The translations under genes were made by a program, and so were the position numbers. The notes under the pieces were generated by a model. The model worked only from the letters and a program-made list of their open reading frames with translations, did no database searches and had not been told where the DNA came from. Of a stretch of 64,000 nucleotides of DNA, positions 6,903 to 56,671 are shown in pieces (position 1 is the first letter of the stretch; each line of letters opens with the position of its first letter). Origin of the DNA: Medicago truncatula (taxonomy: Eukaryota; Streptophyta; Magnoliopsida; Fabales; Fabaceae). Location of the stretch: NCBI RefSeq assembly GCF_003473485.1, contig NC_053048.1:46512255-46576254 (forward strand). The letters are read 5' to 3'.

Positions 6903-6956
6903 GACTTCCAATATTTTCAAATGGCCTTCCCTCACTGCTGCTTTTTTTTTAAGGTA

Positions 6957-7285
6957 AAAAAAGGTACACCTTTGATGTTGTTGCGAAACATTGACCCTAT
7001 ATATGGTCTGTGTAATGGGACACGATTGTTATGTCGTGGTTTATTTAAGAATATGTTGGATGTGGAAATCCTAACATAAATAAGTCACAAGGGCAAACTA
7101 TTCCCAATGTCGGAATCTATCTTTCACAACATGTTTTCAGCCATGGTCAATTATATGTAGCTTTATCAAGAGGAATTTCTCAAAATTCAACAAAAGTTCA
7201 CATTAAAGAAGGAAAAATAGAAGGAGAAGATGAAGACTTTACGAAAAATATAGTTTTTAATGATATTCTTTTATCGCAATCATAA
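6957..7285 (+). pseudogene. Remnant of Helitron PIF1-type helicase C-terminus
   Basis: Translation gives KGTPLMLLRNIDPIYGLCNG, then a segment through LLCRGLFKNMLDVEIL. After a frame change it continues as NKSQGQTIPNVGIYLSQHVF and SHGQLYVALSRG, and it stops at 7283-7285. These are the C-terminal motifs of plant Helitron (RepHel) helicases. The part normally lying between the two blocks is missing and a stop follows the first block, so the copy is dead. A Helitron-like 3' end follows on the same strand at 7611. Confidence 0.85.
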
Positions 7286-22539: not shown

Positions 22540-23418
22540 TTTTTTTTGTTTTGAACAAGCAAAAATGGAATATATTAACACTGCTTAAATAGCCCTTTCA
22601 GCACAAGGTGTACCGAAAAAACTACTTAGCACGAAACACACAGTTTACAAAATACAACCAAAAGTTAGGCAATGCCTAAACAAGACAATGGATTCGACAT
22701 CCACATCTGATCACCAAACACAAAAACCACCTTACTAGCTTTCAGCCACCACAAAGATTGATACTTTACTTTATCTAATAATTGCAATAAAGAACTTTCT
22801 TTTTGTTTAAAAATCCTATTATTCCTTTCATTCCATATAACCCACACCGTCAATAACCAAATAAGCTGAAGAAATGATCGCCTGGCTTTCAGACCTCCTG
22901 TGTAAAAAGCAAAATGTGCACCATGATTTGATATGTCGCAATGATCAACACCATCAAAACCTATCCAAGATCTCACCAGCGGCCATAATAAACCAAAAAA
23001 TCTGCAAGACAAAAATAAATGTCGAGCGTCTTCCAATAAACCACACCCTGACACACATAAACATGCCTCTGAACTCAAAATACCACGGGAAGCTAAATTG
23101 GACTTGGTAGGGAGTCTGTCTCGAATCAATCTCCAAGCAAAAATAGACACCTTAAGAGGAACCTGTTTGTGCCAAACCAAATCCTCACAAAGGCTATCCT
23201 GCTGCTCCTCTTGAGAAGTAAGTAAAGCATAAGCACCACGAATTGTGTACCCTTGACCAGGGTCCGGTTGCCACTGCCACACATCATAAGAAAGAGGCTG
23301 CAAAGAAACATTAGCAAGTAATAACCTACACTCCACAAGGAGGTCCTCCTCCCATGCCCACAACCTCCGCCTCCACTGCCAACCACCTCCCTCCTCCCCC
23401 CACCCTAACGAAAACATC
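22540..23418 (-). mobile_element. 5'-truncated LINE (L1-type) insertion with target-site duplication
   Basis: An 879-bp copy flanked by a perfect 17-bp direct repeat tccttaataaataatat (22523-22539 and 23419-23435). The minus strand has one long open frame, 23402 down to 22665. It encodes the end of a LINE reverse transcriptase and zinc-binding region (YTIRGAYALLTSQEEQQDS, FAWRLIRDRLPTKSNLASRG, VWVIWNERNNRIFKQ). The T run at the left border is the remnant of the poly(A) tail in minus orientation. The perfect TSD and long open frame point to a fairly young insertion. The rest of the ORF is absent, as expected for 5' truncation during reverse transcription. Confidence 0.93.
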
Positions 23419-23589
23419 TCCTTAATAAATAATATGAGAAAGATAAATGAAAGAATTGAAAGAAGAGAGTAATAAATAGCTAATGTCAATAACAGATTAT
23501 AAAAAAAAAAAAAAAAACAATATTGATCAAGCTAAATTTATCGAATATTACTCATCTCCTAAGATAGTTAACCAAAAAATATCACTTAG

Positions 23590-31101: not shown

Positions 31102-31792
31102 AATACTAGGTAAGGGATGGTTGTAGGTAGGGGCTCTTGCCTTCTATTACTCCAAAATTTCTCAAACAAGAACATCACATATATATCCCAAGTTAATTAA
31201 CATTCCACTTGCTATGTTACATTGACTTTTTCAATCAAAAATATTGCAAAGTATTTATAAATGATGCGACTAATATGTAAACATTATTTCACTCTTTTTG
31301 AAATGTCTCCGTCCTTTTTGCAAGACTTATCAAAGTTTTGTTCTTATTTCTTCTATTGGTTTGCCTTAGATTTTTTGAATTTTATATTTTATGATAGACT
31401 CAAATGGCTCGAGAAATAATATAGAGCATATTTGTACTGATTTCTGTAAATTGTTTTAAGGATATGAAAGATTTAAAGTCTTCATCAAACCCACCCCCAT
31501 AAATGTCACTCATGTTTCATGTATATTCATCCTCCATAGATAGATGAGTATGCATTACAAAACTAAGTATATATTAAGTAACTCCATGTCAAAGAAGTGC
31601 ATAAATTACATAACTTACATTTTTTATCAAGTTTGATCGTTCTTTTAATTCTAATAATTTTCTCGAAGATATATATAAAAAAGAAAACTAAAGCAACGTT
31701 GATGTTGAAAAACATACTGCTTATGCGTTACATGGGTTAGCCCGGTAGAAAGAGCGGACAGACGGGCACGGGAGTGCCCGTCTGGACGCTAG

Positions 31793-32493: not shown

Positions 32494-32530
32494 CTAGACC
32501 ATCGACCCGTGCTAACGCACGGGTCATTTC
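32494..32530 (-). mobile_element. Helitron 3' terminus on the minus strand
   Basis: Read on the minus strand, a perfect hairpin GACCCGTGC-GTTA-GCACGGGTC (32525-32504) is followed by GATGGTCTAG and then T. This is the CTAG|T end typical of Helitrons. The element would extend to higher coordinates. Its 5' end was not found, and a similar decayed hairpin occurs near 32943-32965. Confidence 0.6.
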
Positions 32531-35595: not shown

Positions 35596-35759
35596 TATAT
35601 AATAAGGACAAAAGTACTAAAATCAAGAATGAAAGTTGATAAAATCTAGACAAAATTATACAATTCGTCCCTTAACTTAATTTCAAATAACATTTTCGCC
35701 CATCACAAAGAATATAAGTTCATTTAACAAGAAACAAGACCAAATCTGAATAGTCGGAG

Positions 35760-37442
<1,683 letters not shown>

Positions 37443-37605: not shown

Positions 37606-38936
37606 GGGTGTGTTTGGTAAAATTAAGCAATAAGCTAGCTTATAGTTGATGGCTGATAGCTGAAAAGCTTGTTGATTTAAATTAAAGTGCTTGGTAAAAT
37701 GAGCTTTTGAAGTTATTAACAAATATAAAATGACTTAAAAGTACATATATGTTTAATATATTTTTTTTTGAACAGGCAACATATATGTTTAATATATTAT
37801 AAATTTAATTTATAAAAATATTTAACCTTTTTTTACCCATAAATATTTTAACTAAGAATTTGTCTTAATAATTTTAATTTATTTCAAAATATTTTTATGA
37901 AAAATTATTTCTTTTGATTTATATTGGTAAATATGTTCAAAGAAAAAATAATGTTAATATATTTTTTTTGAAGGAATAAATAAATATTTAGATATGAATT
38001 TGATAGAAAGAGACTGTATAAAAAAATCAAATCTAGAAGAATATTTTAACCAACCGGAAAAAAAAATCAACTAGAAACAACTTAAGGCAATGTGCAAACC
38101 GTAAAAAAAAATTAAGCATTATGTGGGAAGTTTTCTTTTTTTAAACAAACTAAAATGAGATGTATATTATTATGAACAAAGAAGATTTACCGTGCAAAAG
38201 ATATGCAAAAGGGTAAACCAACCAACCAGGATACAACAGTCAGGTGCTATTTTAAATGAGCACCGTAAAAAAGTTATAGAAAATTACACGATAACACCCA
38301 TGCAAGGGAGTGGATGTTTCCACCAGTCATAATAAGTAAAATAAAAGATATCTGCGATGATTTCAACTACATAAAAGAGTTCATCTTCACTTTTTCAGCT
38401 AAAGTAGAAGAATCACAAGCCGTATCTTGGAACACACAATTATTTCTTTCATTCCAAATAGCCCAAACAGAAGCGAACCAGATTACTTTCAAAAAATAAT
38501 GAGTGGCTCTAGGCAATCCAGCCAAGTTAGAGAATTGTTTAAAATGCTGCCGAATGTCACCTGGAAACACCATAGATAAGCCTAACCAAATGCAAAATAT
38601 GATCCCAAAGCGAACTAAAAATATTACAAACACAAAATAAGTGAGCCGCGGTTTCATCATAAGCACCGCATCATGACACACAAACCGAATGTCACGTGGG
38701 AAGTTTTCTCTTTACGTGGGGTAGTTTTTTTTTAATAAAAAATAATATTAAAGGTTAAAATTGGAATAAAATGTGAAAAGCTATAAGCTCAAAAGCTACT
38801 TGAATTAGCTTCTTAAAAAACACTATAAACTAGTAAGAAAAGTTTTTCACCAAACATATCTCATTCTATCAAAACAAGCTCATAAGCTAGTCCAACAACC
38901 TATACGCTAGCTTCTTTTTTGTTACCAAACACAGCC
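37606..38936. mobile_element. Harbinger-like element carrying a nested LINE
   Basis: The left end GGGTGTGTTTGGTAAAATTA faces a right end whose complement is GGCTGTGTTTGGTAACAAAA. Both contain GCTAGC-type subterminal repeats, and TAA flanks both sides (37603-37605 and 38937-38939). 1331 bp in total, of which about 570 bp is a nested LINE fragment (38137-38695 plus its TSD). No transposase. Confidence 0.8.
38137..38695 (-). mobile_element. 5'-truncated LINE nested in the Harbinger-like element
   Basis: Flanked by a 14-bp direct repeat gtgggaagttttct (38123-38136 and 38696-38709). The minus strand encodes the LINE C-terminal signature VIWFASVWAIWNERNNCVFQ, closely related to VWVIWNERNNRIFKQ in the LINE at 22540-23418. 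A T run at the left border is consistent with a poly(A) tail in minus orientation. Confidence 0.85.
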
Positions 38937-39524
38937 TAAATATATACATGCCTTATTAGTTAGAATTTGCAGCCTAAATATATGTTGCAGTTTTAGTGAT
39001 ATAAGTGGAGTATCGTATTTAGTGGTGAGATCTTATCTTAATCTTAATATTATAAAAGGAGTTGTACAATGCTGCACTCTTGCCCTAGATAAAACCTATG
39101 TTAACCCTTACATTTTGAACTCCAAATTCTCCTTGGAGCAAAAACCCTAGAGTTTTAAAATGTTAAATGACAATATTGCCCTTCAGCTGATAAAAGTGAG
39201 TGCACAATGCTCAATCACATAAGTGGCCAATTGAATTTAATTTAACCAATAAACACAAGTTTCTTCTCCATGCACATGCACACTGGTAGCACGCTTCCTC
39301 TGTATGTACCAGAGAAACACATTTTCTACACTCAAGCTCATCTCTACTCATATCTACCATGTTCATTTGCTTTTCTCAGAGAATAAACAACCCAAAATTC
39401 CCTTCTTTTTCTCACTCTCTCTTCTCTTCCAATCAACCACTTCTTCTTCTTCCTTTTTCCTACAAGCTTTCTTCTTTTATCACAAATTTCTTCTCAATTT
39501 CATTTTTTTTTTCTTTCAAATCTC

Positions 39525-39686
39525 ATGCTCTCTTCTTTAATCCCTACAAAATTTCAATTTGAAGATGGCAACCTTTGTAAATCAGAGGATGATGAAGACG
39601 ACAGTGTTTCTGTTTATTTCGATGTCATGAATGAGGAACCCGAACTGAACAAGTGGAAGATGAAGCTGGAGAAGATATTTGATTAA
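39525..39686 (+). CDS. Unrecognised 53-aa acidic open frame
   Basis: ATG at 39525 to TAA at 39684-39686. The start is MLSSLIPTKFQFEDGNLC, then KSEDDEDDSVSVYFDVMNEE, ending in a basic/amphipathic KWKMKLEKIFD. It follows a pyrimidine-rich, UTR-like stretch (39385-39520). It could be an exon of a captured gene rather than a gene of its own, given the captured fragments downstream. No function assigned. Confidence 0.3.
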   Translation: MLSSLIPTKFQFEDGNLCKSEDDEDDSVSVYFDVMNEEPELNKWKMKLEKIFD

Positions 39687-40343
39687 TGTTATAACTTTTG
39701 GGAATCAATCCTCTATTTCTGTATGTTCGTTTTATTTCTCAGCCCCTTTTGCATTTTGTATAATTTCCCAGCCCTTAGTAATTAAAACTTTCACCCCTGT
39801 CAAATTCAAACCTCTTTATTTATTTTCAATTTAATCATGAGATTCATTAACTCGAAATGTTTTGATGCATTTCTATTTTCAAAGTAATTGTGAGATTCAT
39901 AAACTTGAAGAGTTTCAAGTTTTTTCATTATTTGATTTGCTATGATTGTGTATTTGAAGGATATAATCTTCGTATAAGACATGTATTCATTCAATGAAAG
40001 ATGCGCCCAGTCCTTGGAATTCTGATGAACTCCAGAGACCTTCATACTACACTCGACAGTGCTAAGTGGCAGGTAATTCAATGAAAAATGCACATTTCGA
40101 ATTGAGTAAACCAATAAACTCATTCCTGGTTTTGTAGGGACCTTTCAAAATAGGTCTCAAGATTATGAATATTACTAAAATGTTCTTAATTTTGTCAAAT
40201 TTTACTCATTTTTTTAATCATGTGTTTTTTGTTGATTTTGTTAGCTTTGGGACTATTTTTGGTACTCCCATTTTAATCTCATGTAGCTGATTTCACAAAG
40301 CTATGCTCCGATGTTTTCCCTTTAATTGATGCGTGTGATTCAG

Positions 40344-40889
40344 AAAAATGGTGTCAAACATGCTGATTATCAATTGTAAGTTTCTGTAAATCAATTCATT
40401 TACGCTCTGTTTGGATTTCAACTCAGTTTATTTACTTGCATGATAGTTTATGAAAACAATTTATAGCTTATATGACAACAGTTTGAGTTTATATTGAAAT
40501 AACTTATACATAAGCGCTTAATTAAGTTGTTTATCGAAACAACCACTTAGAGTTTTTGTTGCACCGTACATTGGCAAACCAAGTTTTTTTTTTAAATTCT
40601 TTGTGCAGTAACAATGCAATGAGTCTTTTTGCTAAGATTAAAGAGCAACAACCGGAATTCAAAAATCCACGCTCACTTGGAGAGGTATAATCAGAGATAA
40701 TTTCCTTTTTATTAATTACTGATTTCGGAACTAGATTTTGTTTAATTTGAATGTGTGTGTTTTTGTTTGTGTAGGCCATTATAAAAGTATCCATCCATCA
40801 GATATGGTAGAGTCGTGCTCTGTTGCCGGTCTTGGATTTGTGAATATTGTCTTATCAAATAAGTGGATAGAAAAGGTGGTTCAAAAAAG
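40344..40889 (+). pseudogene. Arginyl-tRNA synthetase fragment, three exons
   Basis: Exon-like pieces at 40344-40375 (NGVKHADYQ), 40609-40684 (NNAMSLFAKIKEQQPEFKNP, then RSLGE) and 40775-40889 (IHPSDMVESCSVAGLGFVNI, then VLSNKWIEKVVQKR) have GT-AG borders. They match the N-terminal additional domain region of plant cytosolic ArgRS, in the order of the real gene. The third piece needs a one-base shift to stay in frame, and no catalytic HIGH/KMSKS part follows, so this is a broken, partial copy with introns kept. It was therefore copied as DNA, not through mRNA. Confidence 0.8.
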
Positions 40890-42573
40890 GTTTGATTTCA
40901 ACTCCATCCAAATCTCATTGTTCTCATCAAAATTTTACATGCTTTGTTCATGGTTCAAAAATCAATCGAATAAGCTTTATAATCAATGAAATATATTAGC
41001 ATGGTACATATAAGTAATTAGATACTCTTAGTTGATCATCGTCCGTTTTAAGCTTAAAATGAGATTGATGAGAGAGAACAAAATAACAATTGGTTTGTGG
41101 ACAATCGAAGGATACATAGATGAAACAGTGTATAAGGATGGATTTGAGTTCACTATGATACAAAACTGCAACTGTTATGATGGAGTACATAAATAAGAAC
41201 CTGTTTTTTTTTTTTTACAGTTTATGCTTAAGAGTAAATAGGTATGCCATTTAACAGTATTAGATTTACACTGATATTGACTTTTGATTTTATTTGCTAC
41301 AGGTGCATTTCTGGATATATTTTAGATCTTGCCTTTTCTGCCATGAAATTTCTCTTCTTTTTCATCTATTTTGAAAATTTATTGACACTTAATTATATTT
41401 GAACATTTGTTGTGTGTGTGCAGGTTAACTTGCCTCCTTCTTAATCTTAGTGTGGAAGATATCACCAATCACACATTTGAGAGTTCCTCGTTCAAGGTAT
41501 AGTTTTTCTACTCCTGCTTTCTTTACTCATGTGTTGAACTATGTTTTCTCAGCTAGGCTGCATTTGCTTTTATTACTATCCTCTTTAATTTCAATCTCCC
41601 TAATGTCGCTCCTTTACTGAATATTCGTTTTTGTTTACAAAATTGACTGTCGAATTTGTAGAGCCTTTTTTTATTGTTGAATTAAGATTTTTCCATAAAT
41701 GATCATATATTTCTGATTGTTAAAAAATTGACACTAAAGATGAAGAATTAACATTGGTCAAACTCACTAGAGATAGATATCTCACCAACCATACAACTAA
41801 CGGGGACAAGACTAATGCATTAATTATTGAGAGGTTGAACTTGGGGTATTGCAAATCTCACAGTTAAAAGACTTTGTATTCCGCGGTGTAGTAATAACAG
41901 TGTTGAGTTATCTGCATAACCATATTATGCGTGTCTGTTCGTTGATCGTTGTTGGCACTGCATCCTGTGCATACATGCAGTTTGTTCACACATTTAATCA
42001 TGGTCGTTTAACCTTTGTTATTGGGAAACAGAAATTGTGGCGCAAGATTACGAAGAAATTTTGAATCTGTAGACTGCCTTGAGCCAAGCAACATATGAAA
42101 AGACCGTGCTTCCATAACTAGGTGTGTTAGTTATATGATTTTAGGATTCATTATTCTGCATTTATTCAATAACAGATTTAACTTTGGGTACCACAAGTGT
42201 CACCCATGCTGCCTTTCTATCCTGTGCATAATGAATAACAGTGTGCCGCGAATTGATTACAGTATCTCTTCATTAAACCGTGCTGGCTTTGTATCATGTG
42301 CACTCATGGTAGCAATTCATACGTGGACACAAATGTCGTCATTTATGGCGCTCAAGATCTAGAGCCAAACAAACAATAAACAGAAAAGTCATTATTAGTG
42401 ACTTTACACTTCTCTGAACATTCTCATTGGCAGCTTAAGATTAGAGACTATTATATAAGACAAAGTAGCAACAATTGAACCGCACATCTCTCCTATGTTT
42501 TATCTAACTCATTTGGATGTAACAAAGTACAATTTATATTATCTCAGCAAATACTTTCATCTAAAAAAAATCA
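40890..42573. other. Gene-fragment mosaic, unidentified
   Basis: Scattered exon-like bits with splice-like borders, for example 41424-41499 after tgtgtgtgcag (LLLNLSVEDITNHTFESSSF). Source not recognised. No intact gene. Confidence 0.35.
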
Positions 42574-42944
42574 TAATGGACCCAAACAAGAAGCGTAGAG
42601 TTCATGGACAAAACTTACCATTGTCCTATGTTACTAATGGTAATCATACCTTTTCTACATTTGGTGCTATTACTAATTCGATTTTGTGTTTGATTTGAGA
42701 CATACTATGTTCATATCTCTTTACAGTTGCTTCATCATCCGACTTATCACAATTTACCAACAGAAATGTGACAAGAAAGCTTACCCCTATTTCACCTGGT
42801 AGATATGTTCTAAAGCGTCCTAGAAATTTGCATTGCGGTGACCTAAACAAAGCAACCGTAACCGGGTCAAATGAGAATCAAAGCTTTTATCCAGAGTGCG
42901 GCGAGAATGGTGAAGATTGTGACGTTCCTGACAATGATTTGGGT
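42574..42944 (+). pseudogene. Two-exon fragment resembling a Helitron-associated ORF
   Basis: Exon-like 42574-42639 encodes MDPNKKRRVHGQNLPLSYVT and ends at a donor-like gtaatc. After ttacag at 42726 comes an in-frame piece to about 42941 (LTPISPGRYVLKRPRNLHCG, DCDVPDNDLG) before gtaagt. It reminds me of the N-terminal region of Helitron helicase or OB-fold proteins, but this is from memory and weak. Confidence 0.35.
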
Positions 42945-43629
42945 AAGTTTTGCAATTAATTGCGGTTTTTCGTCGTTATTTTAGTTATTATAGTTCCTAT
43001 ATGAGAGACCAAAATATTTGGAACAATTAAAATAAATTATGGTATGTATTGTTCCCTCTATTATTTTTGTTTTGTTTTTAGCATTGTCTTCATTATGTTG
43101 TGTTCAACAAAAAGCATAGTATGCATATGACTTTCGATGATTAGATTTATGAAAATGTCTCCCTCTGTAATAATAATAATGTATGTGACAATTTGTGGTT
43201 TTTTAAATTGTGGAGCATTAAGTTACCCAGCACCATAGATTTGTGCAAATTCAGGCGAACTGTACAAGTTGACCCTGTTCAAATTTTTTCAGGTAGATTA
43301 CTCATCAATGACAGTTTATTATTTGATTCTATCATGAATGGTGCAATTGCTTTCCCACAGTTTTGTATCAATCTCAATTTTTCTTCCCTGGCAATAATTT
43401 ATGTTGTTGTGATTCTACTTGCTATTTTTATATAAGGATGGAATGAAGTGTCACATTTTTCTGCATATTTTTATATACTCTTAACAGGTTTTGTAGTCGC
43501 GAGGCATCCTTGGCCTGGGAGCATAACGATGAATCTGCAAGTTGCAACACAGATTGTGACGAATTTCTGTATTGTATTCTAAAAATGTATCTTTAAGCGG
43601 AAACGACGGTGTAGTTAGTAACGAAGGTA

Positions 43630-43925
43630 CATCTACAAATTATGGCATATCAGATCATCAATCTTCTGGCACTGGCTCATAGTCTCTTCCCACAACATCA
43701 GTTACTATAGACAGACAAACTTTAGAGCCAAGTAAGGTGAAAGGCATCAAAGGGGAAAAAGAAACGAAAGGAAAGGAAATTCTTCAGAAGGCGGGATGCT
43801 TCTGGGTCAACATCTGATCTTTATAACACTTACAAGGGACCTGAGGAAAATAAAGAAGCTGTTGCAACTTCAGAGAGCACTGCAAATGTTTCTATTTCTG
43901 AAAATTTGAAGCAGCTACTGATGGT
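43630..43925 (+). pseudogene. eIF4G (translation initiation factor 4G) fragment
   Basis: The plus strand reads SVTIDRQTLEPSKVK, then (after a frame change) ASKGKKKRKE, DASGSTSDLYNTYKGPEENK and EAVATSESTANVSISENLKQ. This matches the low-complexity part of plant eIF4G upstream of the MIF4G domain (the 'KKKRKEILQKADAAG...DLYxAYKGPEEK' region). Two frame disruptions fall around the KEILQKAD motif. Only this segment is present. Confidence 0.75.
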
Positions 43926-46152
43926 TGGTTGCTTCACACATTCTCTCTCTCAAACTCAGTTTTTGTTAATGGTGTTGAAATTACAAAGTATATCGAGACA
44001 ACATCATAGTCTTTTCTTTTTGTTCTTGCCATGAAGCATAAAGAAGTTCAGGTGACTCTTGCGAAAATATGTAGTGAAAAAGTAGAGATGTATGCAGTGT
44101 CTTTTGCAAAATCTCTTTTGTAAAAAAGTTAATAGATCACTGCTCAATCCAATGAAGAGAATTTTGAATCAATTATGAAATTTTCTTTTCTAAATGTATA
44201 ATGAGATTGAGTATTTTAATTGTGAAATTATTAACTTCCATGTTATTTGTATGTAAGTTTGGTTGATTGAACAAATCATATATTATTTCAATTTAAAAAG
44301 TTTATTTTTTAGAAATGCTAATCATATTAAAACATTTTAGAATACTTTTTTTTTTTTATCTCATATTGTATATCTATTTCTTTTATGATTTTTAATATGT
44401 ACGGGTCGGAAGTCCGGAGTTACTTCAAGAAAAATGACAAAGATATTGTTAACTAATGAGAAAGACGAAGATACAAATGTAACATCTAATGTAGATTATA
44501 AAGAAGTGGTTTAAAATGTTCGTTAGTTAACATTCTCATTACTCATGTGATGTTGGAATGAAGTTTCAATTATAATATATTTTATGTTCTAAATTGCTAA
44601 TATATTCCACCCAATCAATCAATCACTTGAAAGTTCCTTTGGAAAAGTTCCTAGAGCTCCTCACCATCACGATCATCCGGATAATCAGTTTGAAGATGTA
44701 ATTGATTCTTACTATGCATATCTGTATTATTACTCAAAATTAGCTTAACGAATTGAATGATTTATTGAGTAACCATATCTCCAAAGGGGAGCCTCGCCTC
44801 GAGGTGTTTTTGGTATTTACAAAACATTGGATGTATTTTGTATTTTTCCATCCTATATTGCTACCCATTTTATTTGAAATAGCGTGATTATTATTTATTT
44901 ATTTAAAATTTACTTACTAATTTAAATAACTTATTTTATGGTGGTTGTGGTTATTGTGTTGATTCCAAAAAATGCAAGTGTAGAAACTAGGAGTTTATGA
45001 GATTTCACGTCCAACCAAAGCTCCAACCTATTTATTTGTTTTTTTCTAAATTCATCTAAAAATTTAAGTTTTGGATTGGTTGATATATTTTGCAATAAAC
45101 ATGACTTTTAAAAAGGCCAAATCAATGTATCAACCAATATTCACTGTTAGCTTTGAATATCATATAATGAAAAAAATTTGAAAATATTCACACATGGAAC
45201 ATGGATCCAAAATTTAATTAGTGCACGAAATGACTTAATTATAAACTGGCATATATAACCCAAAACGAAGTCATAGAACTATAAAATGGCTCATACACAG
45301 AGAGCAATTCAAACCTATAGCAGCCAAACTGACAATACTTATCCAAATGCAAAACAACCTACAAAATAGAATCTTTTAGGATGCTAGATATCGAAAATTG
45401 TTTACCTGTCATACAACAACTTATCCATGATTGCATTCAGAAAGTAAACTTATCCAGGATATAAATCCAGAAAGAAAGAAAAAAAACTTGGTGAAAATAC
45501 TGAATACACATCAATTCATAAATTGATAGTGCTTAATAGACATTTTAGTTTGGTCAAACTTATAAAAATGGATCCATAAAACCATGATGTCTTAGTGGTT
45601 ACAGCTTCCACTTAAAGGAATAATTCAGACAGTAATTACCAATTACATAAAACTAACAAGCATTCAAAAGCCAAAATAGTTAAAATTGAAATAGTTCAAA
45701 TGTCTCATTTGGTCACAGTGATAAATGTTATAGTCCCCTAATCCACTCCATCTGCTATCTCCTTCCAATCAAAAAGCGACCTACAGTGGATTGAAACAAC
45801 GGTGAATGAGTAATTTATGTGCCAAAAACAAAGCCAAACATGATGTTAAGTTCAAACAGTAACAACAAAATAGCAGCAGCAGAAAATGCCCTCCCACCCA
45901 AAAATTACATCAACATCCATTAATTAATTACCTATGCTGCAAATTTACAAAATTCATTCGCAAAATATGGACTAAATTGGGAAATATAAAACAAACAGAT
46001 ACACATAAAACTTTCAAAATCTACATAAAAGCAAATAAATATCGTATTATATATAAAGGTTAACTATGAAGCCAAACCAAACACATGCTTAGACTGCAGC
46101 TTGATAAATCAGTTTTACAGCTGAATAGAACTACTCTCAAGTAAATAAATAT
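43926..46152. other. Gene-free stretch
   Basis: AT-rich DNA. A 10-bp perfect inverted repeat CGGAAGTCCG lies at 44407-44416 after 'tacgggt', possibly an element tip. No gene seen. Confidence 0.4.
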
Positions 46153-46223
46153 AAATTAAAGCCAACTTAGAAACCAAGGAGATTGCATTGTTTTGTTTGC
46201 AATTGTTGAAAAATCTAACCAAA
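46153..46223. repeat. 71-bp direct repeat, copy 1 of 2
   Basis: The tract aaattaaagccaacttagaa through ttgttgaaaaatctaaccaaa recurs at 47871-47941 with one mismatch. The two copies are 1718 bp apart in the same orientation. Confidence 0.92.
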
Positions 46224-47769
46224 CATAAACTAACTGGGATTTTTGGCCAATTTCCTGGGATGATACAAGGTCCCCAGACATAAAGGTGCAATCCAAGTTA
46301 TCCAATCTAAGCTTGAAAGCAATAAGATAAGAAATCACTTAAGTTTTTTCTTTGAATCATAAGTGAGGAAAGGACTGGACTTAACTACCTCAAAGCAAAT
46401 TAAGGTCTTAGCATGCTCATTACCCTTCTTGAATAAATCATTTGTAAGTACGGGTATAAATACATTGAAGATTGTCGTATCAGAATGATGTTGCTTCTCT
46501 TAACCATTTTATGTTCAAAATGTGAATTCATAGTATTTTTTGAGGTATCATGCCATGCTTACTATAAAATAAAATAAAATTGCACCTAGAATGTCCTGGT
46601 AGTGTTGGCTTGTGACCGTAGAGTATTTTCCTCATAAAAAAATAATGTTACCTCTCTTAACCGTTTTATGTTACCTCTTCAAATAAAATTGCATTTAGAG
46701 TCATGACAAATAGTTGTCTAACGAGTTTGACCTGTATTGTTGTGTATATTCTTTAATTTGTATCAAACACAGTTGATCCACAGGTCTTAGTTTTACCCTT
46801 TTACGTGCGTCATCCTCACAACATAGGACAGGACAGGTTACTTCACTCTACATATCTATTTAATACTGTACAATGGGAATCACAATTCACAAGTGCAATG
46901 CAAGTGAGTGAATCGTGACGAAATAAGTATCTCTTCCAGCAGGACAAGGCGTTAGATATCAAAATACAGTAATATCTATCAATGCATGTGATTGAACAAT
47001 CAACAATGTAACCGCGATTTACAGAAACACAAGACAGAATAAGGAAGCTACGGGCTGGAGGCAACAGCAAATAGCAGATTATTGACCATAGACTAACACA
47101 GGATTTGTTAGAGTAAGGAAAAACTTGGGAAAATTGGGACCATGGTTGTACAAAGAGAGGGAGAACAATCTGAAGGGTCATAAAAAGTTTACAAATTGCC
47201 TCTACTTCAGGACACGAAAAACCAACCAGACATATGCCGGCTAGTTAACTCAATTCCTCATAGGTTTTTCAATCAACCAGTCCAAATACAATGAGATTAT
47301 AACGTACAAAATTGACAAATGCAGAGTTGGTGATCAAAAATATGTAGATGACTAGCCAAATCCCAATCAACCAGTGTAAATGCAATGAATTGACGTTGAA
47401 CCAAATATTGTTTATAGACAAAATGGAACCAAATATGGCACAGAAGGGGCAAGTATTGTTTAAAACGAGCCAAATATGCTTATAAATATATGGATGAATT
47501 GCTGCATTCACTATACAAGCAAAAACAAATATGCATTCAAGCAACAAAACAAACATTGTCATTGAATAGCAAACATGACCAACAAAAATATTAATTATAG
47601 ACTATTAAATTAAAATAAACTATTAAACTCAAATTTCAATATTAACAAGTCGCTAAAGTCTAATTTCAACTATTGAAGACACAGAAATACATAAATTACC
47701 CAAGTCTATTCTCTTCATGGATTTAATAACATGGAATCAAAACTAACAAGGGATATATAGAATTTTTAC
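46224..47769. other. Gene-free stretch between the 71-bp direct repeats
   Basis: Only short spurious frames. The 46840-47560 portion is less repetitive but nothing in it was recognised. Confidence 0.4.
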
Positions 47770-47811
47770 CTTTTATTTCTCCTTTGGGATTAACAATAAC
47801 ACCAGCATTAT
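47770..47811 (-). pseudogene. Single exon of ribosomal protein L23 (uL14)
   Basis: On the minus strand, ttatgcag precedes a 42-bp exon encoding DNAGVIVNPKGEIK, followed by the donor gtaaaa. This is the highly conserved core of eukaryotic RPL23/uL14 (EDNAGVIVNPKGEMKG). The preceding and following exons were not found nearby, so this is an isolated fragment. It lies between the two 71-bp direct repeats. Confidence 0.65.
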
Positions 47812-47870
47812 CTGCATAAGCAAAACCAACAAAAATAAGAATCAGTCACACTAACATATACACGAAATTA

Positions 47871-47941
47871 AAATTAAAGCCAACTTAAAAACCAAGGAGA
47901 TTGCATTGTTTTGTTTGCAATTGTTGAAAAATCTAACCAAA
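47871..47941. repeat. 71-bp direct repeat, copy 2 of 2
   Basis: Second copy of the repeat at 46153-46223. Confidence 0.92.
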
Positions 47942-48339
47942 ATGGAATTACATAAACTACAGGAGCAAAATTCAATAATAAATTAAGAAAACAGATAAAG
48001 ATAGGAAAACCCTTTTCAAATCCAAATTAACCAAAAACCCTAATTTGAAATCCTAATTAACCAAAAATCCTTTTCAAAATCCTTCAAAAACCTTAATTAA
48101 GACTAGCTCTTTATTTCATGGAGAAAAAGAAAAAGGTTAAATTTACCTTAAAGTTTGTCACCATATTTACCGGTGGTCACAATCGGTGCAATTGATTTCA
48201 TGGCTGCTGTTATAACTTGACGGTCTGACAGCCAGGGGCGGATGGTAGTACAAGGGAGCTCTTGCTACCCAAAAAAAAAAAAAAAATCTGATATCGAGTA
48301 GGTATATTTTTATATTTAGCTATCCCTAATAATATATAT

Positions 48340-48629
48340 GGCTAAAATATGGTTTTAGTCCCTACAAATATGCCTCATTTTGGTTTTAGTCTCTGTAAAA
48401 AGAAAATTTTGTTTTTGGTCCCTGCAAAAGATTTTGTTTTTGAAAATAGTCCCTGACCCCACTTTTGTGATGATTTGCATACGTGGCACATTATAACTGA
48501 ACCAATTTTGTAGTTTTTGGTCCCTGCAAAATATTTTGTTTTTAAAAAAGGTCCCTGCAAAATTTTTTGTTTACAGGGACTAAAACTAAAACGAGCCATA
48601 TTTGCAGGGACTAAAACCATATTTTAGCC
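48340..48629. mobile_element. Mutator-type MITE with 10-bp flanking repeat
   Basis: 290 bp. The left arm ggctaaaatatggttttagt is inverted at the right end (actaaaaccatattttagcc), and pairing continues for about 60 bp per arm. It is flanked by taatatatat on both sides (48330-48339 and 48630-48639). The interior has repeated 'ggtccctgcaaaa' words. Confidence 0.92.
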
Positions 48630-48639
48630 TAATATATAT

Positions 48640-49426
48640 TTAGCTATCCCAGGTTTAATTTTAGATGAAATAATTTTTTCTATCTTTATTTAACTTTCGG
48701 TCGAACTTTAAATTATTTGATAATGTTGTATAAGAATCGAAAGATTAACACCCAAAAGAGATAAATAATAAATAATAACAATATTTTGTTTATTTAACAA
48801 ATAAAGTAATACAATTGTAGGCCCACACACTCTCAGCCCACCAGCACCACACATTTATAGCTATGTTTGTATTGGTTTGATACTTCCCGTCTCAATAACA
48901 ACAATAAAGAAACATTTTTCAACAATAAAAATGATCAAGACAATAGTCATAGACAAATTAAATGTACAATGAGTTTCTTGCAAATAACCTATTTATTTAC
49001 ATTTGAAAAGACTAAAATTTGTTAATTTTAGTCCTTAATTTTTTGTTAGAGATTAAATTCAAGACTAAAAACATTTTTTTTTTTTTTTTAAAAAAAATTT
49101 AAAAACAAAGACAAAAATTGAATAATTTTTTTAACCCTAAATTATAATTTATAGGACTAAAAATATATTTTATTCTTAAATTTAATATGTTTGTTTTAAA
49201 AAAAAAAAATTCTTTATAGTTGGCCCCTGCATAAATTTTTTGTGAGATTCGCTGCTGACAGCACCGTATTCCCCCAATCATTGTGAACATCTTCCATAAG
49301 TTCAAAATTTTCCAAACCCAAGCTAAGTTCCATGTTTAGTTTGTAACCTAGACCCTCACGCGTATCACCAACAAGCTGATCCGCTGCACTCCTCGTTCCA
49401 CAGCCTCTGCCGCGAAACGGTATTTG
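48640..49426. other. Gene-free stretch with an unrecognised minus-strand frame
   Basis: AT-rich DNA. At 49214-49440 the minus strand is open and encodes RGCGTRSAADQLVGDTREGL, then NMELSLGLENFELMEDVHND. The composition is coding-like but I do not recognise it. It may be retroelement coding sequence next to an LTR. Confidence 0.35.
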
Positions 49427-50461
49427 TAACACCCCGTTTTCCCAATATAAAAATTTCATTTAATAATCAAAGTTATTCACGTAAACGGAATGCTACACTT
49501 CTTTTCTTAAAACCATAAACTGAATAAATAACTATTTATCCTTTAAAATTCAATAACAAAATCTTTAATACTTCGCAGCGGAATTTATTCAATAACTAAA
49601 ACAGTCTTTGGCACGAAGGCCTCTTCATAAATATCTCATAAAAATCCAATCTAAAAACATAGTCGTAAATCTTCAAAAACAATACGTAAGAAATAGAAAA
49701 GCAATAACAAGTTCCCATCCCGTTACGTATCAGAGCACCTAAAGACACACGCGAGAGAAACCTCACACGATAGCAACAACAACAGCTTAAGCTTGATCAC
49801 CTGTTAGTTACCCATGGTGGGCAAACAGAAGGGGTGAGATTTCACAAAACAATAATATCAAGCATATAATTCAATAATTATATTTAACAACATAAATAAC
49901 ATCATTTAGTAATAATAATTCTTCATGTAATAATTCTTAATAGTTCAACCAACTTCTAATTATCATTTACTTCATACTCATCACATTATAAACATCATCA
50001 TATAACACATATTAACCAAATCATAACAACATAGATCATCACATCATAATCATAGTTCATATACAACATAACAACATCTTAATCATAATTCATATACAAC
50101 ATCTAAATCATATTTCATATACAACATAACAACATCATTAATTCATAATAATAATTATTCATCAAACATCTCATTATCAATTCATGAATAAAAGACAACT
50201 TATCAACTTTAACATAACCATCATCAAGTACATTTAACAACTCATAGATATCATCATGTAATCATCATTACTAATAACTTTAAAACAACACAATGTAATC
50301 AACATCTCACTACAATAATAATCATATACGACACAACATAAATCATCATCTTATAATGATATGAACAACACATAACATAATATTCACTTAATAATAATTA
50401 ATCATATATAGTACAACATATTCATCACTTAATAATAACACTTATATACATCACAACATAT

Positions 50462-50529
50462 AGCATCATAATAACATCATATAATCAACATCGTAAACAA
50501 CATCATAACATTATAATCAGTATCATATA
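50462..50529. repeat. 68-bp direct repeat inside the LTR, copy 1
   Basis: The tract agcatcataataacatcata to ttataatcagtatcatata is identical at 51563-51630, 1101 bp away. Confidence 0.9.
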
Positions 50530-51562
50530 CAACATCATAACAACATAACAATATCATAATCAATATCTTAAACAACATAGCAACATCTTAGTCAACATCA
50601 TATAATTCACATCATAAACATCGTATAATCTTCATAGGTACTTCTTTAACAACACATGGGTAGAAGACAACTCGACAACTCATGGATGATAATTCATCGA
50701 CAACTTAACAACTCATGGATGATAATTCATTAACAACGACCTTGACTCGACAAATGCGACAATGCAACTTAGACACTTATATGCATGTGGTACCAATCGT
50801 CATCATAAGTATTAATATACTTTAATCGTGCGGAGAACAAAGCTCCTAAACGTGCGGAGGACAAAGCTCCTAATCGTAGTGAGGACAAAGCTCAATGAAT
50901 GCTAATGCATTGACTCTATCAACAAGACACCTTAATCAACTTATCACTTATACATCCAATAATTTGGAGTTCATCATCAACTTATTCATACTAATAATCG
51001 TGCGGAGGACAAAGCTCCTGATATAATTCAATAATATTTCGAGTAATGCATTTAATCATTAAATCACATTACAAACAACTTAGCAGTTCATAACAGCAAC
51101 ATAAACAGCACAAGCAATTCACAACATAACAATATTATTATGAAGTATCAACAACTTAAACATCATACATCTTCCACATAAGGCATATAAGTATTTCACA
51201 TAACCAACAACAGCAACATAGGCGACACATAAACATCTCAAGATATAACAATATCAAATGATAATCAACAACAACTCATGCAACTTAGTTAAATAACAAT
51301 AGCAGCATAATCAGATCATATCAACAGCTTAATATCAACTCATTTTCAACAACTTCCTGATCATTCAATAATAATTCAAGTAATGCAATTAATCAATAAA
51401 TCACATTATAAACACTTAGCATTTCAATATAGCTTCACAATTCACAATCCTTATCTTTAATAGGTCACACCATGTACCTAAAGTTCAATTCTAACCAATC
51501 CAAGTAACTCAAGTCTCAAACTCCTCAAAAGCACTCAATTCTGGAAGTGCTCGCGAGGCGAG

Positions 51563-51630
51563 AGCATCATAATAACATCATATAATCAACATCGTAAACA
51601 ACATCATAACATTATAATCAGTATCATATA
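51563..51630. repeat. 68-bp direct repeat inside the LTR, copy 2
   Basis: Identical to 50462-50529. It follows gctcgcgaggcgag directly and breaks the local word pattern, so it looks like a templated insertion. Confidence 0.9.
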
Positions 51631-52137
51631 AATCACACAAATCATATAAGTATATTATAAACTCATTAAAATAATCAAATAATTAGAGAGGGCGTTATAG
51701 AGGTCAACAAAATTCAACTATGAGGCTATCATAAGACAAGAACTGAGTAATGACAAATGCCAAATGGGAAGAACAAAAGAGACCTTTTGGGAATCGCAGT
51801 CAAAAATAACTTTTTGGGTAAAAAGGACACCCATGGGCAAATGGGTGAGTGCCACGTGGACATGCTTGGGAAGGAGGTGTGAACGTTTGGTCCTTTTCAG
51901 AGGACAGCTGGCTTGTATGTAATATATAATGATAATCACTGTTGTAGAGTATTTTTTTAAATAATTTAGGTATCTTCCTTTAAATCATCATTTTCTTGAA
52001 GATTACGTTTTAGTAGTTATTTGTTCCTCTTAAAAGAAATACTCCCTTCATCCCTTAAAAATATTAAAAAAAGTTGTTAGAGTAATAAAATTATCTTAAA
52101 TGTGTGTGACTATTATTTGATTATCTTTAATTTATCA

Positions 52138-52225
52138 TCGTGAGTTTAACTTAATTGGCAAGAACAATACATAATCTATGTAGGGTTCGGGGTTCAAGCC
52201 TCCGCCAACACAAAAAAAAAAAAAT
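52138..52225 (+). mobile_element. tRNA-derived SINE-like head (array unit 1)
   Basis: The A-box-like gagtttaacttaattggcaa and B-box-like ggttcgggg-ttcaagcc are followed by an A run. The same element is at 54001-54085 and 55711-55798 in units 2 and 3, so it was present before the duplication. Confidence 0.5.
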
Positions 52226-52497
52226 TATCTTTAATTTAATATATATTTAGTGTTAACTTTTCATATACCAAAACAAGTTTTTTTTTTTTAGAGAATTTAT
52301 CAATTTACATATACCAAAACAAGTTTTTTTTTTTTTTTTTTAGGGAATATACCAAAACAAGTTGGTAGTATTGATTAGAGGTGGTATATTTAGAAAAGGA
52401 GTAACCAATAAATTTAGAAATTTTTATATAATCTTATATTTACAAAAAAATAATATAAACTACTCCTATAAAAAAATACACAGGAGTATCATTAGGC

Positions 52498-52637
52498 GTA
52501 TGGGTGGGAATAGGCTAGGTCGGGCTAGGCTTTGCAAGGCCTGAGTCTGGTCTGCTGCTTGTCATAGGCTTACTTTTTAGGCATGAGTATAGCCTTCTGA
52601 AAGCCTGATACGGTCTGCTAGCATATTTAAAAGCCTA
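52498..52637. mobile_element. hAT 5' fragment (array unit 1)
   Basis: The sequence atgggtgggaataggctagg onward matches the first about 140 bp of the complete hAT at 56076-56671, including the 5' target copy ttaggcgt just before it. It is cut at agcctatttta, where it joins exonuclease-like gene sequence. Confidence 0.85.
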
Positions 52638-53503
52638 TTTTAAGAAAACGGTTCGGACCCATCTGGATGAGAAAACGGTTCTTCCCGTGGGCCAAAACAG
52701 ATATTTCAGCACTTTTATTAGTAAGTCGAGCGTAGACCTCTTCTGGTCCAAAAGAATAAAGAGAGAGAAGAATGCATTCACGATCGTTTAGGACGTCCGA
52801 CTGATGTTTTGCGATGGAAGAGCAGAGCAAAGGAACTTAAAACCCCAAACAAAAAATGGGTTGATGAATGTTACGAACTTTACCTCAGAGCAAAGGAAGC
52901 GGCGGAATGGAAATGGGAATGAAATTAGCGATGAATGAAAAAGTTGGTGTCTTTGTTGATGGTGAGAAAGAACTTAGGAGCACATCTTGGTACATGAGGT
53001 CGAGATGTTCAGCAAGAATATCAAACATGGTAACATGACTGAATGTTTCTCTCTGAGCTCTCAAATTGTGAGCAATGTTGAAACTCGCAACGGCCAACTT
53101 TGAAATCAAGTAGAGTGAGCGCGGTTTTATTGCGCACTACATCTACACATACCAACTTAACATCGGGATTGTCGAGCAACTTATTGAATTGAGGTGGTAC
53201 TAAGCCCATTTTCACTGCTTCCTTTACTTGGTAGATTAAAACGTTGTTGCAGTAGGACAACGCAATAACAGAAGCATGCTTAGCAGATTCCAATCCTATG
53301 GTTGTGAAGCCTACGATTTTCTCGCCGGGATCTTCAAGTATTCGGTTCAACCAGTTTGCAGTTGTCTCAAAATCGGCAGTAACGACTGCAACGACTTCGT
53401 ATCTACCAAAAACAGTGGAAAAGGAAGAAAAGGTAGGGTGATTGGATCTGTGTTCGATTGCCGGTAAGAGGTCGACATTGATAGGATCCATGAGAGGAGG
53501 CAT
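52627..53503 (-). pseudogene. WRN-type 3'-5' exonuclease-like gene, broken copy A
   Basis: Same gene as copy B (54496-55212). The N-terminal part (53503 to about 53085) starts MPPLMDPINVDLLPAIEHRS. A two-base deletion relative to copy B (tgttgaaactcg instead of tgttgagaaactcg, near 53080) shifts the frame. In addition, about 155 bp absent from copy B (about 52812-52972) separates the C-terminal part (DRECILLSLYSFGPEEVYAR). The extra segment could be an intron lost in copy B or an insertion. As it stands the frame is broken. Confidence 0.8.
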
Positions 53504-54230
53504 GGGGTTTGAAACGGTTGAGACAAATGAGAGATAACAAAAAATGATTCTATCCTAGGACAGAGGTCAACAAAATTCAATTGTGAGGCTATCATAAGAC
53601 AAGAACTGAGTAATGTCAAATGCCAAATGGGAAGAACAAAAGAGACCTTTTGGGAATCTCAGTCAAAAATAACTTTTTGGGTAAAAAGGACACCCATGGG
53701 CAAATGGGTGAGTGCCACGTGGACATGTTTGGGAAGGAGGTGTGAACGTTTGGTCCTTTTCAAAGGACAGCTAGCTTGTATGTAATATATAATGATAATC
53801 ACTGTTGTAGAGTATTTTTTTAAATAATTTAGGTATCTTCCTATAAATCATCATTTTCTTGAAGATTACGTTTTAGTAGTTATTTGTTCCTCTTAAAAGA
53901 AATACTCCCTTCATCCCTTAAAAATATTAAAAAAAGTTGTTAGAGTAATAAAATTATCTTAAATGTGTGTGACTATTATTTGATTATCTTTAATTTATCA
54001 TCGTGGGTTTAACTTAGTTGGTAAGAACAATACATAATCTATGTAGGGTCCGGGGTTCAAGCCTCAGCCAACACAAAAAAATAATAATTTATATTTAATT
54101 AAATATATATTTAGTGTTAACTTTTCATATACCAAAACAAGTTTTTTTTTTTTTAGAGAATTTATCAATTTACATATACCAAAACAAGTTTTTTTTTTTT
54201 TTTTTTTTTTAGGGAATATACCAAAACAAG

Positions 54231-54500
54231 TTGGTAGTATTGATTAGAGGTGGTATATTTAGAAAAGGAGTAACCAATAAATTTAGAAATTTTTATATAA
54301 TCTTATATTTACAAAAAAATAATATAAACTACTCCTATAAAAAAATACACAGGAGTATCATTAGGCGTATGGGTGGGAATAAGCTAGGTCGGGCTAGGCT
54401 TTGCAAGGCCTGAGTCTGGTCTGCTACTTGTCACAGGCTTACTTTTTAGGCATGAGTATAGCCTTCTGAAAGCCTGATACGGTCTGTTAGCATGTTTAAA
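54231..54500. mobile_element. hAT 5' fragment and flank (array unit 2)
   Basis: Repeat of the unit 1 arrangement: ttaggcgt, then atgggtgggaataagctagg, cut again at agcctatttta (about 54513) directly before the copy B 3' end. It differs from unit 1 by scattered substitutions. Confidence 0.8.
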
Positions 54501-55212
54501 AGCCTATTTTAAGAAAACGGTTCGGACCCATCTGGATGAGAAAACGGTTCTTCCCGTGGGCCAAAACAGATATTTCAGCACTTTTATTAGTAAGTCGAGC
54601 GTAGACCTCTTCTGGTCCAAAAGAATAAAGAGAGAGAAGAATGCATTCACGATCGTTTAGGACGTCCGACTGAAGTTTTGCGGGGAGCACATCTTGGTAC
54701 ATGAGGTCGAGATGTTCAGCAAGAATATCAAACATGGTAACATGACTGAATGTTTCTCGATGAGCTCTCAAATTGTGAGCAATGTTGAGAAACTCGCAAC
54801 GGCCAACTTTGAAACCAAGTAGAGTGAGCGCGGTTTTATTGCGCACTACATCTACACATACCAACTTAACATCGGGATTGTCGAGCAACCTATTGAATTG
54901 AGGTGGTACTAAGCCCATTTTCACTGCTTCCTTTACTTGGTAGATTAAAACGTTGTTGCAGTAGGACAACGCAATAGCATAAGCATGCTTAGCAGATTCC
55001 AATCCTATGGTTGTGAAGCCTACGATTTTCTCGCCGGGATCTTCAAGAATTCGGTTCAACCAGTTTGCAGTTGTCTCAAAATCGGCAGTAACGACTGCAA
55101 CGACTTCGTATCTACCAAAAACAGTGGAAAAGGAAGAAAAGGTAGGGTGATTGGATCTGTGTTCGATTGCCGGTAAGAGGTCGACATTGATAGGATCCAT
55201 GAGAGGAGGCAT
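54496..55212 (-). CDS. Degenerate WRN-type 3'-5' exonuclease-domain protein, copy B (intact frame)
   Basis: A single open frame of 238 residues starting MPPLMDPINVDLLPAIEHRS. The layout matches plant WRN-exonuclease-like (DnaQ/DEDD fold) proteins: a beta-strand block VVAVVTADFETTANWLNRIL, then KIVGFTTIGLESAKHA in place of the 'GxDxEW' motif, LSYCNNVLIYQV, PPQFNRLLDNPDVKLVCVDV, and a C-terminal VLNDRECILLSLY in place of the 'YxxxDAxxxxxxY' motif. The catalytic Asp and Glu of motif I are replaced (TTI) and motif II lacks its Asp, so nuclease activity is unlikely. The last codons (to 54496) read into the fused hAT fragment. It may be expressed, or it may be a pseudogene that still has an open frame. 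Confidence 0.65.
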   Translation of the reverse strand: MPPLMDPINVDLLPAIEHRSNHPTFSSFSTVFGRYEVVAVVTADFETTANWLNRILEDPGEKIVGFTTIGLESAKHAYAIALSYCNNVLIYQVKEAVKMGLVPPQFNRLLDNPDVKLVCVDVVRNKTALTLLGFKVGRCEFLNIAHNLRAHRETFSHVTMFDILAEHLDLMYQDVLPAKLQSDVLNDRECILLSLYSFGPEEVYARLTNKSAEISVLAHGKNRFLIQMGPNRFLKIGF

Positions 55213-56075
55213 GGGGTTTGAAACGGTTGAGACAAATGAGAGATAACAAAAAATGATTCTATCCTAGGACATAGGTCAACAAAATTCAACTGTGAGACTA
55301 TCATAAGACAAGAACTGAGTAATGCCAAATGCCAAATGGGAAGAACAAAAGAGACCTTTTGGGAATCTCAGTCAAAAATAACTTTTTGGGTAAAAAGGAC
55401 ACCCATGGGCAAATGGGTGAGTGCCACGTGGACATGCTTGGGAAGGAGGTGTGAACGTTTGGTCCTTTTCAGAGGACAGCTGGCTTGTATGTAATATATA
55501 ATGATAATCACTGTTGTAGAGTATTTTTTTTAAATAATTTAGGTATCTTCCTTTAAATCATCATTTTCTTGAAGATTACGTTTTAGTAGTTATTTGTTCC
55601 TCTTAAAAGAAATACTCCCTTCATCCCTTAAAAATATTAAAAAAAGTTGTTAGAGTAATAAAATGATCTTAAATGTGTGTGACTATTATTTGATTATCTT
55701 TAATTTATCATCGTGAGTTTAACTTAGTTGGTAAGAACAATACATAATCTATGTAGGGTCTGGGGTTCAAGCCTCAGCCAACACAAAAAAAAAAAAAAAT
55801 TATCTTTAATTAAATATATATTTAGTGTTAACTTTTCATATACCAAAACAAGTTTTTTTTTTTTAGAGAATTTATCAATTTACATATACCAAAACAAGTT
55901 TTTTTTTTTTTTTTTTTTAGGGAATATACCAAAACAAGTTGGTAGTATTGATTAGAGGTGGTATATTTAGAAAAGGAGTAACCAATAAATTTATAAATTT
56001 TTATATAATCTTATATTTACAAAAAAATAATATAAACTACTCCTATAAAAAATACACAGGAGTATCATTAGGCGT

Positions 56076-56671
56076 ATGGGTGGGAATAGGCTAGGTCGGG
56101 CTAGGCTTTGCAAGGCCTGAGTCTGGTCTGCTGCTTGTCATAGGCTTTCTTTTTAGGCATGAGTATAGCTTTCTGAAAGCCTGATATGGTCTGCTAGCCT
56201 GTTTAAAAGCCTATTTTATATGAGCATATTTAAATGAGCAATGTTATCTAAGTTTAAATAGACTAGCGAACTAATATATCAATTAGATTAAATTCTCTTT
56301 TGATAATCAAGATGAACTTTTAGGGAATTTGACTATATATTGTATCATATTTCAATTATAGTTTATAATAATACATTTAAACATGCAAAAAATTAACATA
56401 TACTAATAAACTTAAATTATTGAAAAAGTTAACAAATTTTTATTTTAATTCAAAGTACAAAATATGATATAATAATAAATAATATTATTCATATTTACTT
56501 AAATAGGCCTAATAAGAGGCGTTTTGAGTGGCATGTGGCCTAGCCTTTTAAGCTAAAAAGGCTTATAAAAAACCTAGGCCTTCTCTATTTAAGGAAAAAA
56601 ATTGACCTGACCTAATCTGTCGTAAGCTAGGCCATAAGCCCCTGTAGGCCGGCCGGGTCTACTCCCATCCC
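56076..56671. mobile_element. Complete non-autonomous hAT element, 596 bp
   Basis: Flanked by a perfect 8-bp direct repeat ttaggcgt (56068-56075 and 56672-56679), the hAT signature length. The left end atgggtgggaataggctagg is imperfectly inverted at the right end (complement gggatgggagtagacccggc). 'aggcct/aagcct' words recur near both ends. No transposase. Its left portion is what was copied in array units 1 and 2. Confidence 0.93.

Follow-up and report, generated by a model that had tools for sequence, protein, structure and literature searches.

A probable Helitron-derived relic carrying fragments of three host genes in Medicago truncatula

Introduction

Non-autonomous Helitrons of maize carry several gene fragments per element, for which sequential capture has been proposed, and have undergone internal sequence loss (PMC3288121). 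In experiments with Helraiser, a bat element tested in cells, loss of the hairpin was found to increase terminator bypass and the capture of flanking DNA (PMC4778049). The present analysis concerns a 64,000-nt stretch of the Medicago truncatula genome (C7:46512255-46576254, hereafter the window), in which a 5.8-kb block starting at position 39042 is very probably a decayed, 3'-truncated, Rep/helicase-deleted non-autonomous Helitron relic that has gained fragments of host genes for arginyl-tRNA synthetase (ArgRS), eIF4G and a protein kinase. C and L numbers denote contigs and loci, respectively.

As in the maize elements, several host fragments lie in one element that has suffered internal loss; unlike them, the window copy resides in a legume, has lost its 3' end, is single in the search made and retains Rep/helicase remnants (PMC3288121). 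The resemblance to Helraiser read-through capture lies in the presence of host DNA at the 3' side, in place of the missing hairpin, and the kinase piece would fit a bypass of this type; the window copy differs in that no alternative terminator was found, which leaves read-through as no more than a possibility (PMC4778049). The rice Mothra Helitrons are likewise non-autonomous plant elements that lack Rep/helicase and have a captured gene fragment; they are high-copy and contain tandem repeats, whereas the search made showed the window mosaic only once (PMC4683698). The titles and abstract openings found in literature searches contain no account of this locus or of an ArgRS/eIF4G-bearing Helitron in Medicago.

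Probable Helitron origin of the block

The Helitron origin is supported by a 5' TC end common to other loci, two Rep/helicase remnants, relatives with a canonical hairpin-CTRR end and the remoteness of the donor-like genes, two of which lie on other chromosomes (C1 and C2) and the third on C7 at a distance of about 23 Mb. From 5' to 3', the block comprises the boundary at 39042, a leader, a 53-aa frame, ArgRS sequence, repeated pieces, the Rep/helicase N-terminus, eIF4G sequence, a 3' segment that includes the C-terminal tail of Rep/helicase, and finally a piece of a kinase gene (Table 1). Every coding piece is on the + strand, in agreement with the single strand given in the initial annotation, which was made from the sequence alone. 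In this layout the ArgRS stretch precedes the Rep/helicase start, the eIF4G piece occupies the position of the missing core and the kinase piece that of the hairpin.

Table 1. Features of the block (window coordinates)
Feature	Position	Strand	Details
Helitron 5' end (A, then TCTTAATATTATAAAAGG...) and subterminal segment	39042..39214	+	L018, L019, L020, L035 matches, 70-78% identity
Leader segment common to two C4 relatives	39451..39558	+	L035 84%, L058 71%
53-aa open frame	39525..39686	+	no Pfam match
ArgRS fragment	40310..40882	+	partial exon 1 (up to 40375), intron 1, exon 2 40609-40684, intron 2, exon 3 from 40775
Repeated pieces	40971..41746	+	also in another Helitron family (L032, L034)
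Rep/helicase N-terminal region	42576..43083	+	exons 1 (42576-42639) and 2 (42727-42943) with the intron between them, and the beginning of the next intron
eIF4G fragment, inside one exon	43537..43927	+	51-nt deletion, in-frame stop, frameshifts
Helitron 3' segment common to relatives	44228..44607	+	internal gap ~32 nt; no terminal hairpin or CTRR
Rep/helicase C-terminal tail (SGVTSRK...VDYKEVV, then stop)	44413..44511	+	tblastn E 1.1e-4 to L021 helicase frame
MST/STE20-type protein kinase gene fragment, beyond kinase domain	44616..44881	+	90% to C2:39031042-39031302

The region 38000-46000 was compared by BLAST with 20 fetched loci and through searches of the genome (429.9 Mb, 42 contigs). In four of the 20 loci (L018, L019, L020 and L035) the matches start at 39030-39041, though the query began at 38000, and the aligned starts read TC(T/A)TAATA. 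The TC expected of a Helitron is found at 39042, in line with these four loci, and it is placed there because what the window shares with L018 and L019 further left is a few letters of ATCTT-like repeat; the Helitron start previously proposed at about 39031 therefore stands as a shared TC end, at a corrected position. As regards insertion between A and T, the base before the 5' end is an A in L019, L020, L035 and the window and a T in L018, the right junction of the window copy being lost. Directly left of the element, at 38850-38942, lies a high-copy short repeat, to which the majority of the 44 listed matches of one genome search belong.

The piece at 42574-42944, initially regarded as a third exon-like piece, proved to be the N-terminus of a Helitron Rep/helicase and not host DNA. 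It matches C7:51587898-51588331 at 95-96% (in locus L021, 95% over 42643-43083), and downstream of the matching piece L021 carries Helitron_like_N (E 8.9e-40) and PIF1 (E 1.2e-38 and 2.1e-47) domains. Two protein database matches, both JGI, share 88% and 92% identity with it. Further downstream the window reads SGVTSRKMTKILLTNEKDEDTNVTSNVDYKEVV followed by a stop, which is the tail of a Helitron helicase, and the same tail is present in L028, L031 and L035. Descent from an element with a Rep/helicase gene is thus indicated by N-terminal exons and a C-terminal tail, the core being absent, as a search of 39-45 kb with frames of the nuclease-helicase core had no significant result. In L021 a hairpin-CTAG end sits between the Rep/helicase match and the domains, so that the matching piece may belong to a small deletion derivative. 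The same nine letters as at the window start (TCTTAATAT) occur 1.3 kb upstream of the L021 exon piece, with no similarity to the window 5' end detected past them. A possible small Helitron was observed at L021:3579-5500, with this start, a hairpin-CTAG end and a Rep/helicase N-terminal piece, adjoining domain-bearing Helitron frames.

Loci sharing 44228-44588 were aligned at the 3' side, and eight were given to a hairpin/CTRR check (L048 was aligned and left out of it). Half of these eight (L046, L049, L050 and L052) have a hairpin at their end, then CTAG or CTAA with a T after it, and the check was not passed by L035, L045, L047 and L051; folded as DNA, four relatives' 3' ends gave z scores of -3.79, -1.74, -3.23 and -2.70. 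The window tracks its relatives up to CTAAATTGCTAATATATT at about 44607 and then enters the kinase fragment, which the initial annotation did not contain, with the junction between 44607 and 44616. The right limit formerly set at 44430 has accordingly been abandoned, since the Rep/helicase tail and the common 3' segment reach about 44607 and the third host fragment extends to 44881. In two C4 copies, L035 and L058+L049, the 5' segment of the block occurs together with its 3' segment; these copies form one subfamily and are 85-95% alike across some 3 kb. The TC start is kept and the hairpin lost in L035, while L049 has kept its hairpin and CTAG, the corresponding 5' TC (in L058) having decayed.

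Several observations weigh against this interpretation. The window copy lacks CTRR and a GC-rich hairpin, which leaves its right border undefined, and none of the relatives examined combines both canonical ends; the fetched stretches of L018, L019 and L020 yielded no matching 3' end, nor did L028, L029, L031, L032, L034 or L057 yield a matching 5' end. An exact-stem scan of 44882-47000, 3' of the kinase piece, yielded no terminator (mean of 0.04 in 200 mononucleotide shuffles), which bears out the earlier remark that a 3' hairpin and CTRR could not be confirmed, and the wider interval 44001-56000 holds a single weak, distant stem at 52547. As the two defining 3' features are absent, the block is classified as a truncated Helitron-derived relic and not as a complete Helitron. 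A further point concerns second copies of the mosaic: no place other than the window covers both ArgRS and eIF4G among the 49 matches listed in the genome search (40 of 561 candidates scored). The initial annotation had regarded the absence of a second copy with both fragments and common ends as evidence against capture; this absence applies to the fragments, and the ends are common to relatives with other content. Both end segments are found together in L035 and L058+L049, and identical cargo in no copy among the matches listed.

The absence of a second mosaic copy in these matches, together with a kinase piece in place of the terminus and no new terminator downstream of it, would also be expected if a dead Helitron had later been filled with unrelated host fragments by double-strand-break repair and had never carried them by transposition. 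This explanation is considered unlikely, given that three host fragments, all in transposon sense within one 5.8-kb block, form the usual Helitron pattern (PMC3288121).

Host gene fragments

The matches found in sequence searches are far beyond chance. The ArgRS piece matches C1:51674674-51675052 at 85% (E 8.4e-118), and its translation, when manually joined, contains the Pfam domain Arg_tRNA_synt_N (E 7.8e-8), which confirms the identity initially given to 40344-40889, with the limits now as in Table 1. ArgRS genes were read on C1 (L022), C3 (L024) and C4 (L023), the Pfam catalytic domain being confirmed for C4 only. Divergences are Kimura two-parameter distances (K2P), and the donor-like genes are under selection and may not be the true donors. 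By this measure the piece is closest overall to C1 (exons 0.12-0.15, intron 2 0.05, intron 1 0.21), with exon 2 by itself slightly nearer C3 (0.116). Intron 1 holds a dispersed repeat, where the C1 gene has about 275 more bases, and its divergence was excluded from the age estimates on account of this repeat. A further ArgRS copy in a C5 region was rejected, as the L017 match is the dispersed repeat in intron 1. A retrocopy origin of the ArgRS piece is ruled out by its retained introns.

The eIF4G piece matches C7:23779715-23780184 at 77% including gaps (E 2.2e-112), and is 92.7% identical to this C7 gene (23.78 Mb) over 385 aligned sites. The matching stretch of the donor-like gene lies within a single 1051-aa open frame carrying MIF4G (L025:4243-7395). 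The homology reported earlier for 43630-43925 is consequently real, the intron assigned to it is not, and the argument that kept introns imply DNA-level capture applies to ArgRS, with two introns, and not to the intronless eIF4G piece, which taken alone may be a retrocopy, since its source stretch is intronless. The C2 gene related to the kinase piece has protein-kinase exons with Pfam E values of 1e-4 and 1.3e-3, singly below the curated cut-off; when joined, they come closest among solved structures to MST4, STK25 and STK24 (E 4e-29 to 2e-27).

Decay is evident in all three pieces, in the form of a one-base frameshift in ArgRS exon 3, the eIF4G lesions listed in Table 1 and stops or frameshifts in the kinase piece, and a protein product would not be expected from such broken sequences. 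The same lesions argue against a working chimeric gene, in which the + strand pieces would be spliced into one functional transcript; their common strand and the GT/AG dinucleotides kept in both introns of ArgRS and in intron 1 of Rep/helicase would suit such a gene, which nonetheless appears very improbable. Pack-MULEs also carry host gene fragments, and are flanked by target site duplications some 9 bp long. The block resembles them as a mosaic of such fragments, which is also their described cargo (review, PMC13317346), but a Pack-MULE is extremely improbable here because no terminal inverted repeats are present (no inverted match >9 nt between 38900-39300 and 44300-45300), as expected of a Helitron, and Helitron sequence and Helitron-type relatives were found instead. 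Of the two element types initially proposed, the Helitron is therefore retained on the basis of its ends, Rep/helicase remnants and relatives, and the Pack-MULE is dropped.

The 53-aa frame noted earlier upstream of ArgRS is present as a translation, without a Pfam match. The pieces at 40971-41746 recur in a Helitron family with a different 3' end, and sequence therefore seems to have moved between families; in Pfam searches of ten frames of L033, L035, L030 and L032 the 40971-41746 piece remained unnamed, the sole match being PH_2 in another L033 frame. An additional stretch at 43288-43473 shows 74% identity to C7:37196725 and its surroundings and may be another captured piece.

Proposed history

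Differences from the nearest gene amount to 31 of 249 sites for the ArgRS exons, 28 of 385 for eIF4G and 21 of 260 for the kinase piece. ArgRS and eIF4G are weakly different (Fisher P 0.035, without correction for three tests), and the remaining two pairs show no difference (P 0.76 and 0.11). The Rep/helicase region differs from its match by a K2P of 0.047, and the element ends from theirs by 0.21-0.39. Judged from the sequences, these divergences suggest separate events, the order of which is not proven.

For a Helitron-derived relic, the following course is envisaged. The element would have been moved by the Rep/helicase of a relative, and host DNA would have been acquired in separate events, probably stepwise, with ArgRS possibly gained earlier than eIF4G. 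These two would represent internal gains and the kinase piece a terminal one, for which either a bypassed 3' terminator or subsequent repair may be responsible; for that junction the two are equally possible, because no new terminator was found. A more specific scheme combines two capture modes in one copy, with two fragments gained internally, a third on the 3' side by bypass after hairpin loss, and the N-terminal region of Rep/helicase exchanged afterwards between Helitron families, for which the K2P of 0.05 in that region versus 0.21-0.39 at the ends is relevant; this full combination is rather doubtful.

Other features of the window

Another Helitron helicase fragment lies at 6951-7153 on the + strand (tblastn E 6.7e-15 to the L021 helicase frame), and a canonical Helitron 3' end, GACCCGTGCGTTAGCACGGGTCGATGGTCTAG followed by T, at about 32494-32526 on the - strand. 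Near 31792 (+), a long perfect GC-rich hairpin precedes CTAG and T. Repetitive sequence includes tandem units of about 1.7-1.9 kb at 51699-56199, which are 90-99% alike over much of their length and contain minus-strand open frames, and a GA/TC microsatellite of about 0.5 kb at approximately 35720-36230. The open frame at 22665-23531 (-) has a zf-RVT domain (E 9.9e-19), typical of retroelement remnants. Rfam at the gathering threshold and tRNA scans of the whole window returned nothing.

Conclusions

The phenomenon has already been described in maize and other plants, and the locus adds a new, clear but ordinary example, which shows for a legume genome how Helitrons shuffle parts of essential genes. 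It also corrects a tempting misreading, as what looked like a third captured exon belongs to the gene of the transposon itself. With its kinase fragment where the terminus has been lost, the locus would allow a check of the read-through model of 3' capture in a plant.

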